From Candidatus Yanofskyibacteriota bacterium (GTDB lineage: Bacteria; Patescibacteriota; Minisyncoccia; 2-02-FULL-40-12; GWA2-44-9), in assembly GCA_016181045.1 (NCBI GenBank), contig JACPAB010000001.1:1-45704 (forward strand): a stretch of 45,704 bases of DNA, given 5' to 3'. Under the pieces are notes generated by a model, which saw nothing but the letters and a program-made list of their open reading frames with translations, searched no databases and was not told the origin of the DNA. The number at the start of each line of letters is the position of its first letter. The first letter of the stretch is position 1. Of this stretch, positions 12,474 to 15,263 are shown piece by piece. A program made the position numbers and the translations under genes.

Positions 12474-12541
12474 GGGCCCGGTCCGGTGACAAGCTTAGTC
12501 TTGACAGCTGAGTCTTCGGGGTTCAACTCCCCGCGGGTCCA
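12474..12541 (+). other. tRNA-like fold, probably not a functional tRNA
   Basis: GGGCCCG pairs with CGGGTCC as an acceptor-like stem, extending outward to 10 bp (CCTGGGCCCG/CGGGTCCAGG). A perfect T-arm follows the tRNA pattern: CGGGG-TTCAACT-CCCCG. The middle is only 36 nt and I could not fit a D-arm and a 7-nt anticodon loop. It may be a degenerate tRNA, a tRNA-derived insertion site, or a rho-independent structure after rpoC. It stands at the left edge of the DGR segment. Confidence 0.35.
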
Positions 12542-12561
12542 GGATAAAGAAATATCAACAC

Positions 12562-12793: not shown

Positions 12794-13396
12794 ATGTCAG
12801 ATTTCGATCTCACCTACACCCAGACCGGCGATCTCGGCAACAAAATCGGCGGACAGGAAGGTGCCAAAGGCATTCTCTCCGGTGAGCTCGTTGTGGTGAA
12901 GAGAAGCGAGGCCAACCGCCGCTGGATCAAGATTGACGAGAACACCATCGCGGTGGACCTTGAGTCCAGCCCCGGCCTGCCCTTCGCCGGCGCCCAGGTC
13001 GAGAAGCATATCGGTGTTGGCGGCGCGATCTTCCAGAAGCAGGCCGACGGTCTGTATCGAAACGGCCGCAAGGTGGGTCTCCACCTCTCCGGGCGTCAGA
13101 AGGGCGGCAAGGTCGTGAAGGGCTATGAGCTCCGCGACGAGCTCACCGGCAAGCCGGTGCTCAACGCGAATGAGCTCGACGCCCTCTACGACAACCCCCA
13201 TCTCCTCCCCGAGGAATGGAAGCGGGACGAGAACGGCAACATCCGCTTCATCTTCTTCTGGGGGACGATCTACCGCAACTCGGACGGCGGCCTGTACGTC
13301 CGGTACATCTACTTCGACGGCGGGTCGTGGGACCGGGTCTTCAGCTGGCTCGACCGCGGCTGGCGTGGCAACGACCCGGCGGCGCTCGCAAGTTAA
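12794..13396 (+). CDS. DGR target protein with C-terminal variable region
   Basis: This 200-residue protein is noticeably GC-richer than its neighbours. The N-terminal 140 residues match no family I recognise and have no signal peptide. The C-terminal about 45 residues (YRNSDGGLYVRYIYFDGG... to PAALAS) are Tyr/Trp/Gly-rich and have the layout of the C-type-lectin-like ligand-binding domains diversified by DGRs in CPR. The last 121 bp of the gene form the variable repeat. Residues matching template AAC/AAT codons have changed (for example template N-N to R-G or V-F). It has a strong promoter and a good Shine-Dalgarno. The partner bound by the domain is unknown. Confidence 0.9.
   Translation: MSDFDLTYTQTGDLGNKIGGQEGAKGILSGELVVVKRSEANRRWIKIDENTIAVDLESSPGLPFAGAQVEKHIGVGGAIFQKQADGLYRNGRKVGLHLSGRQKGGKVVKGYELRDELTGKPVLNANELDALYDNPHLLPEEWKRDENGNIRFIFFWGTIYRNSDGGLYVRYIYFDGGSWDRVFSWLDRGWRGNDPAALAS
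13272..13392 (+). repeat. DGR variable repeat (VR)
   Basis: This copy aligns without gaps to the template at 13765-13885 (offset 493). All 15 mismatches from 13272 to 13380 fall where the template has A, and become G, T or C. The 3' end holds the likely initiation-of-homing site, with one non-A difference (GGCGCTCGC here, GGCGGTCGC in the template), as expected for IMH versus IMH*. Confidence 0.97.
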
Positions 13397-13547: not shown

Positions 13548-13923
13548 GGAACTAGGTGAATATGCGGGAGATCAAGGTTTCCCGCTACCGAAACCAGTAT
13601 CCATATAACCCAGAGTATCTCTGACTATGGTTTGAGGTAGTGTGGTATATGCGAACTCAAAAACAAAAGAAACTTGGTATAGGGCGTTAAGGTATTACGA
13701 TACCAAATGCGATACAGCTCTGAGAGTATTCAATGGGCAGTGGTATGGAAGACGCTCTATACACACCGCAACTCGAACGGCAACCTGTACGTCCGGTACA
13801 TCTACTTCAACGGCGGGTCGTGGAACCGGAACTACAACTGGCTCGACAACGACTGGAATGGCAACAACCCGGCGGCGGTCGCAAATCTCTTACGTTCTCT
13901 CCCTACTTATCGGGAGAGTTTTG
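13548..13923 (+). ncRNA. DGR template RNA (contains TR)
   Basis: The unit runs from an extended -10 promoter to a terminator (CTCTCCC-N8-GGGAGAG, TTTTG at 13897-13922), about 370 nt, with the template repeat near its 3' end. GCGGGA...TCCCGC forms an upstream hairpin. ORFs called across it (13642-13986, 13707-13973, 13733-13930) merely read through the repeat in other frames. The RNA serves as the copy template for the reverse transcriptase. Confidence 0.75.
13765..13885 (+). repeat. DGR template repeat (TR)
   Basis: The TR is rich in AAC/AAT codons in the VR frame (NSNGNLYVRYIYFNGG, NRNYNWLDNDWNGNN), the arrangement that lets adenine mutagenesis reach many residues while avoiding stops. The 3' end (GGCGGTCGCAAAT) is the presumed IMH*. 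It lies between the target gene and the reverse transcriptase. Confidence 0.97.
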
Positions 13924-14306
13924 TTTCTGAAGCTGACCGCTCCAGCCCCCGATCATTTTCCCTATCTCGTTAATCTTAGTCGATAGAGCTATATATTTCT
14001 TGCTGTCGAGCGACTTTGTCTCCCAAAGGATCATGAGGAGTATCCGCAGCACATCCAGTTTCCGAATAGCTACATTAACGTAGGGCAGTTTGTCGTGTCG
14101 AGGCAGAAAGCTTGCGGTTGCGACTGCTTCTATGATTTCGATAAAATAATTATCGATCCGCTGCCCAAGCGAGTGTTTGTGGGTTTTGGGTATGGTCTGA
14201 TAGTATTCATACCAAACCAAATAAGCGCTTTTGGTCTTTTGTAAAAGCGGAAGTGAAGGTTGGGGGGGGGGGGCGTAACTGGTGTATGAAAATCAGGTTT
14301 ACTCAT
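13903..14306 (-). CDS. avd: DGR accessory variability determinant (Avd), inverted, frame broken at C12 tract
   Basis: The minus-strand product YLVWYEYYQTIPKTHKHSLG, then a stretch around KLDVLRILLMILWETK and INEIGKMIGGWSGQLQKQ, matches the four-helix Avd/bAvd family that partners DGR reverse transcriptases. The annotated ORF starts at TTG 14220, too late to include the first helix. Upstream the same frame reads SLPLLQKTKSAYL. An ATG at 14306 (MSKPDFHTPVT) reads into a C12 tract (14262-14273 as G12 on the plus strand) in a different frame. One extra C, or two fewer, would join them. The gene runs opposite to target, TR and RT, and its 5' end overlaps that of the RT gene by about 20 bp. Confidence 0.75.
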
Positions 14307-15263
14307 AGTTACGAAAGCGTTATATCTTTGGAAAATCTCCTCGAAGCGTGGAAAGAGTTTATCATCGGGAAGAGGTCTCGTAAAGATGTCCAAGAATTCG
14401 AGTTAAATCTGATGGGCAACATCATAGATCTTCATGAAGACCTTACTGCGAAAACCTACTCACACTCCGCCTATGAACCTTTCAATATTTCTGACCCAAA
14501 ACCGCGCAGAATCCACAAATCATTGGTCCGGGACCGGTTGCTCCACCATGCCATTTATCGGCAACTTTATCCATTTTTCGATAAGACATTCATTGCCGAT
14601 TCGTATTCATGCCAGATTAATAAAGGGACACATAAGGCCTTGAATCAATTTCGAGAATTTGGGCATATCGCTTCCAAAAATCACACCAAAACCGTCTGGG
14701 TTCTGAAATGCGATATCCGAAAGTTCTTTGCCAGTATTGACCACGCGGTGCTTTTGGAAATTTTAAGAACGCATATCGATGACGACGACATCATTTGGCT
14801 GCTTGAGAGGATTGTCGGTAGTTTTAACAGCGGCAAACCGAGGACTGGCTTGCCGCTCGGTAATCTTACTTCGCAGCTATTGGTTAACATATACATGAAT
14901 GAGTTTGACCAATTTATGAAGCATCGGATGAAAATTAGATACTATATCCGTTACGCGGATGACTTTGTGGTCTTGTCTCAAGATAAAGCATGGCTCGAAG
15001 AGTTGTTGCCGAAAATTGCTGACTTTCTTTCGGAGCGGCTCAAACTGGACCCGCATCCTGACAAGATCTCAATCCGCACTCTTTCTTCGGGTATCGATTT
15101 TTTGGGCTGGGTTCATTTTCCGGACCATAGGGTTTTGAGGACTGTAACAAAAAGAAGAATGATGAAAAGAATTAAAGAAAACCCCAGACCAGAGGTGATG
15201 AATTCTTATCTTGGTTTACTGAAGCATGGGAATACACAAAAGTTAAGAAAAAGATTGATTTGA
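14286..15263 (+). CDS. DGR reverse transcriptase
   Basis: This RNA-directed DNA polymerase has about 325 residues from ATG 14286. RT blocks appear in order: KPRRIHKSLVRDRLLHHAIY, KCDIRKFFASIDH (catalytic Asp of motif A), GLPLGNLTSQLLVNIYMNEFD with the LGxxxSQ signature that distinguishes DGR enzymes, and IRYADDFVVLS with the YxDD catalytic pair. It has no maturase or endonuclease domain, as usual for DGRs. The ORF track starts at GTG 14253, which would read through the G12 tract (GGGG); ATG 14286 gives a family-like N-terminus. A separate promoter was not seen; it may depend on readthrough of the template RNA terminator. Confidence 0.95.
   Translation: MKIRFTHSYESVISLENLLEAWKEFIIGKRSRKDVQEFELNLMGNIIDLHEDLTAKTYSHSAYEPFNISDPKPRRIHKSLVRDRLLHHAIYRQLYPFFDKTFIADSYSCQINKGTHKALNQFREFGHIASKNHTKTVWVLKCDIRKFFASIDHAVLLEILRTHIDDDDIIWLLERIVGSFNSGKPRTGLPLGNLTSQLLVNIYMNEFDQFMKHRMKIRYYIRYADDFVVLSQDKAWLEELLPKIADFLSERLKLDPHPDKISIRTLSSGIDFLGWVHFPDHRVLRTVTKRRMMKRIKENPRPEVMNSYLGLLKHGNTQKLRKRLI

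Follow-up and report, generated by a model that had tools for sequence, protein, structure and literature searches.

How does a gene work when its start codon and its conserved body lie in different reading frames? The avd gene of a DGR in a small Patescibacteria genome (an assembly of 457 kb in 9 contigs, 85% complete) raises this question, as its two parts meet out of frame across a run of twelve cytosines. Comparison of the window, by which the whole analysed stretch of 45,704 nucleotides is meant, with the corresponding sequences of relatives points, as the very probable answer, to translational phase variation of Avd by slipped-strand mispairing, which would turn targeted hypermutation on and off.

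A DGR with avd in two reading frames

The DGR is placed between rpoC and ftsK in the order target, TR, divergent avd and RT (Table 1), and the whole assembly contains one detectable DGR RT and one avd. Fifteen of 16 mismatches between template and variable repeat fall on TR adenines, and such adenine specificity is the signature of DGR mutagenesis. The RT adjoins the TR and is conserved jointly with avd in relatives, while a Pfam scan of the target gene product returned no match.

Table 1. Features of the DGR locus (window coordinates)
Feature	Position	Strand	Remarks
DGR target gene	12794..13396	+	ORF, 200 aa; VR within 3' part
Variable repeat (VR)	13272..13391	+	87% repeat of TR
Template repeat (TR)	13765..13884	+	paired with VR
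avd body, four-helix Avd, intact	13903..14261	-	no start codon in own frame
C12 tract, between avd start and body; proposed site of switching by slippage	14262..14273	-	G12 on plus strand
ATG start codon of avd (14306-14304) with short leader	14274..14306	-	open into tract; out of frame with body at C12
DGR reverse transcriptase (RT)	14286..15263	+	RVT_1 match, 80 bits; 325 aa

The avd body matches positions 1-102 of the 104 in the NF033474 DivGenRetAVD profile at 78.4 bits, just below the cut-off of 80, and PF22296 bAvd at 54.9 bits, above its cut-off. Its fold, predicted by AlphaFold2 with a pLDDT of 94.4, consists of four helices and recovers Avd 4dwl and the DGR RNP 8ub7 in Foldseek at a TM of about 0.8, whereas a PDB sequence profile search with the Avd alignment gave no match. 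A separate S23-like four-helix protein is encoded elsewhere in the same assembly, away from any DGR RT (L261:1490-1849, G000:C6).

From the ATG at 14306 the minus strand reads MSKPDFHTPVTPPPP, and beyond C12 the leader frame gives NLHFRFY..., while the body (PSLPLLQKTKSAYLVWYEYYQ...) occupies a different frame, in which no ATG, GTG or TTG precedes body codon 14. The preliminary description had placed an Avd-like gene opposite to target, TR and RT, with its ATG and its body in separate frames joined through C12 just ahead of the RT start. All of this was borne out: the body is complete by family profiles, and the tract ends 12 nt ahead of the RT ATG at 14286. The tract is also the sole G or C run of at least 7 within the 45.7 kb window.

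The avd and RT starts overlap head to head by 21 bp (window 14286-14306), the first 21 bases of RT being antisense to the avd start and the RT His7 codon (14304-14306) complementing the avd ATG, so that the avd promoter should sit within RT. A TR-RT transcript would be antisense to the entire avd, which makes antisense regulation possible. Upstream of the DGR, a short tRNA-like stretch ending in a T-arm-like sequence follows rpoC (window 12474-12544); tmRNA and mascRNA models match it only below threshold, and ARAGORN found nothing there.

Repeats and reading frames at avd loci of relatives

Loci with avd were gathered from genome contigs, from searches of relatives, class and phylum, and by direct fetch; removal of near-copies left 188 distinct loci, nearly all from Patescibacteria. 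Within the collected loci the pairs L026/L033 and L025/L036 are identical across avd and the upstream region, which equates two genomes of the order with MAGs named Candidatus Yanofskybacteria. The inverted avd, initially described as unusual, is so only against phage-type DGRs: in a control set of 60 mostly viral avd loci, taken from viral contigs, 49 have avd on the RT strand, whereas avd is divergent from RT in 179/188 loci of the main set.

A simple repeat is present within the 62 nt preceding the avd body in 154/188 loci. C tracts account for 142 of these (C7 in 4, C8 in 15, C9 in 46, C10 in 44, C11 in 25, C12 in 6, C13 and C14 in 1 each), and the remaining 12 comprise 8 dinucleotide repeats (CA 4, GA 3, CT 1) and 4 tetranucleotide repeats (CGAA, CCAA, CAGC and CAAT, 1 each); none of the 154 has a repeat unit of 3 or 6 nt. 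By way of background, 3/3582 random 65-nt windows from the same loci contain a run of at least seven C or seven G residues. In the viral control set a repeat was found only in two CPR-like contigs (L263, L264), alongside one A7 run, and no near-identical strain with a different tract length came up when viral contigs were scanned. Among the tracts of at least C9 listed in 31 genomes, 27/81 lie just 5' of avd; the other such tracts of related genomes (17 loci inspected) have no shared reading-frame pattern around them. Two further arrangements were observed: in L166 (G007:C22) C9 is followed by G9, a self-complementary homopolymer pair just ahead of the avd body, and at G026:C57:1576-1585 a second C tract lies on the avd strand about 1.6 kb past the avd 3' end, near the same DGR.

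All 139 repeat-bearing loci tested have an ATG within 72 nt that is open into the repeat, against a shuffle expectation of 73. Measured against the body, this start is in frame in 28 loci, at +1 in 67 and at +2 in 57 (152 loci). The in-frame share is below one third (p=6e-5), also if every locus with any in-frame ATG is included (37/152, p=0.02). Each of the 30 valid loci lacking a repeat is in frame; L109 (body start cut off) and L173 (not an Avd of this kind) were left out. The same holds within the repeat-bearing clade, where 13/13 repeat-free loci are in frame versus 37/152 with a repeat (p=5e-8). That every repeat-free locus is in frame while most repeat-bearing loci are not is the best argument for taking the upstream ATG as the real start and the repeat as the cause of the broken frame. 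The locus has two attributes of SSR translational phase variation, namely a slippable repeat with non-3-nt units between start codon and conserved body, and mixed phases among relatives with intact bodies. The constant start/body offset expected of programmed frameshifting was not found, given that each wrong phase is frequent and some loci are in frame.

The same counts bear on a recoding mechanism, in which the C tract would induce programmed ribosomal frameshifting or slippage of RNA polymerase, and every template would give rise to a constant proportion of in-frame Avd. Transcriptional slippage can occur at long homopolymers, and the equal diversification of VRs in out-of-frame (OFF) and in-frame (ON) loci, described below, also speaks for recoding. 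A recoding site nevertheless predicts a single fixed offset, while the two wrong frames are about equally frequent; repeat-free loci are in frame; and the same site can be occupied by (CGAA)9 or (CCAA)12, tetranucleotide repeats that to our knowledge are not recoding sites. Recoding is accordingly improbable.

Homopolymers are error prone in sequencing, and a consensus of C10-C12 built from short reads may be one base too long or too short, which would suit a true gene that is in frame everywhere and merely misassembled. Such an explanation is extremely improbable, as the 152 separate loci come from many projects and about 80% of them, including ones with 2- and 4-nt repeats, are out of frame, with a significant deficit of in-frame loci. 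Homopolymer phase variation of the avd frame, originally a guess from one genome, is therefore supported by the comparison of related genomes, in which tracts range from C7 to C14 and most put the body out of frame, in one wrong phase or the other; a fixed in-frame tract, the outcome that would have spoken against it, did not occur, and some relatives carry 2- or 4-nt repeats at the site.

Constraint on the start codon and position of the tract

The avd start lies exactly opposite RT codon 7 in 91 loci. His7 of the RT is encoded by CAT in 93/93 loci, as compared with 842 CAT to 578 CAC (59% CAT) at other RT histidines (p=7e-21), and the Leu codons TTA and CTA, which would be stops in antisense, are depleted between the RT start and His7 (p=0.001); these p-values ignore the kinship of loci and so overstate certainty, while the direction is uniform. 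The fixation of CAT together with the avoidance of TTA and CTA indicates that the avd start limits the choice of codons in RT.

This constraint also bears on the proposal that translation of avd begins at a non-ATG codon beyond the tract, leaving the tract non-coding. The first body codon is TTG in 40/114 OFF loci, in keeping with that proposal, and an in-frame alternative start near the body is available as ATG in 3 of the 114, as GTG in 15 more and as TTG in 54 more. The first body codon is otherwise variable (TTA, CTG, CTT, ATA, CCT and others), however, and the window lacks ATG, GTG and TTG there. A downstream start would moreover leave unexplained the in-frame ATGs of the repeat-free loci (30/30), the invariant CAT and the absence of 3-nt units. 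We regard it as quite improbable as a general account; a weak alternative start is possible in OFF loci of this kind, though not in this window.

The tract might instead serve the RT side: as a G run in the promoter or 5' leader of the RT transcript, it would adjust RT expression through its length. In many loci it indeed ends 10-25 nt before the RT ATG, within the RT transcript leader. Its distance to the avd body is nevertheless steady (median 8 nt, IQR 7-9, sd 3.5), while that to RT is loose (sd 26, range -10 to 263 nt, counted from RT codon 2), and in L040 and L104 the RT is about 150 nt off, yet the tract remains within the avd leader. The difference in sequence among repeat units, the conservation of the avd start codon beyond the needs of RT and the frame kept in loci without a repeat likewise count against an RT-side function, which is very improbable.

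Probable slippage, repeat turnover and past diversification

Slippage of such repeats is plausible in this group. MutS (PF00488) was undetected in 46/46 genomes, the host of the window and 45 related ones, whereas 11/14 control genomes match; mismatch repair may be missing across this part of Patescibacteria. MutS loss strongly destabilises homopolymers in other bacteria. Assembly N gaps at the tract number 5 against 0.27 expected, as would be the case for mixed lengths in one sample, but homopolymers alone can also break assembly.

On a FastTree phylogeny of 165 Avd+RT rows, in which long branches were flagged and change counts are approximate, about 21 changes between repeat states can be counted, of which 14 or more fall on well-supported branches. 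One tight group alone contains C9 (L056), (CAAT)7 (L238), (CGAA)9 (L053), (CCAA)12 (L063) and (CAGC)6 (L078), as well as a two-copy CCAA relic that is in frame (L047). That one slippable repeat has been exchanged for another in the same place suggests that slippability is selected for.

If avd were decaying and dispensable in the clade, a majority of out-of-frame copies would be expected, and this is what is observed. None of the OFF avd bodies is truncated, however, and in close pairs of them substitutions at codon positions 1:2:3 number 380:192:1123; the third-position bias combined with the lack of truncation indicates purifying selection on OFF bodies. With the start codon conserved as well, decay is the least probable of the explanations considered here.

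Adenine-type TR/VR pairs are present in 69/77 OFF loci (1127/1174 mismatches at TR A) and in 24/27 ON loci (393/405 at A), so the OFF loci were active in the recent past. Equal past diversification in OFF and ON loci fits fast switching, but would also fit Avd made in OFF cells.

The phase-variation model can then be outlined as follows. The avd gene would be a contingency locus whose translation begins at the ATG antisense to RT codon 7; the ribosome would pass through a leader encoded by a slippable repeat (C7-C14, sometimes with 2- or 4-nt units) before reaching the four-helix body. Slipped-strand mispairing, favoured by the apparent MutS absence, would alter the repeat length and thereby bring the body into frame or take it out. 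In the in-frame state Avd would be made, the RT-Avd-TR complex could act and the target would be diversified; out of frame, Avd would presumably be lost and the target left unchanged. We infer both the slippage in living populations and the control of diversification from these comparisons. In a reconstituted BPP-1 DGR in E. coli, avd nonsense mutations lower activity to about 1e-9 (PMC12875486), and by analogy an out-of-frame avd should stop diversification in CPR DGRs, although several avd copies in some genomes could act in trans. Since most sampled assemblies, the window with its C12 included, are out of frame, OFF would seem to be the default state and the rare ON cells the diversifiers. 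It is probable that a second, random mutation switch is laid over targeted hypermutation, whereby rare ON cells diversify, revert to OFF and fix the winner, and that this two-layer mutability is old and has been kept by selection across many CPR lineages despite repeat turnover.

Relation to known systems

The DGR of Bordetella phage BPP-1 (avd-TR-brt) shares with the one described here the RT, Avd and adenine-specific TR/VR, and its Avd fold is the one recovered by the structural search. The BPP-1 avd, in contrast, forms one operon with TR and brt (PMC12875486), whereas the avd of the window runs divergently from RT, overlapping its start, and contains an SSR. Closer in host group and cellular location are the Patescibacteria-restricted cellular DGRs of DGR clade 2 (Roux et al. 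2021, PMC8144416), to which the DGR of the window probably belongs; the main text of that paper mentions neither homopolymers nor frameshifts.

The SSR contingency loci of Neisseria, Haemophilus and Campylobacter offer the nearest parallel in logic, with C/G tracts and tetranucleotide repeats, a near-start position in the 5' coding region, non-3 units, mixed phases and reversible frameshifts. These loci mostly switch surface structures or methyltransferases, however, while avd belongs to a targeted hypermutation machine. Phasevarions, governed by phase-variable methyltransferases, similarly place a random switch over a higher-level variable programme, but their output is gene expression, whereas that of the avd switch would be mutation of a chosen gene. 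The literature searched, which covered few subscription papers, contains no report of a repeat switch on a DGR or avd; each component is of a known kind, and the combination appears to be new.

How DGRs spare good variants and are regulated in nature was described as open in a 2026 paper (PMC12875486). A repeat switch on avd would offer a concrete, testable answer on DGR control for a very large, mostly uncultivated bacterial group, extending phase variation both to Patescibacteria and to a mutagenesis machine. Tract lengths in reads would give the ON fraction, which could be compared with VR diversity in the same sample. On the practical side, automated annotation will label many genuine avd genes as frameshifted or miss their starts.

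The 457 kb assembly has just one further C run of at least 8 besides the avd C12 (G000:C3:50260-50268, L262:1461-1469). It lies among ORFs for a VGIGTT-repeat protein with several apparent frame changes, which may represent a surface protein gene that is broken or phase-variable.
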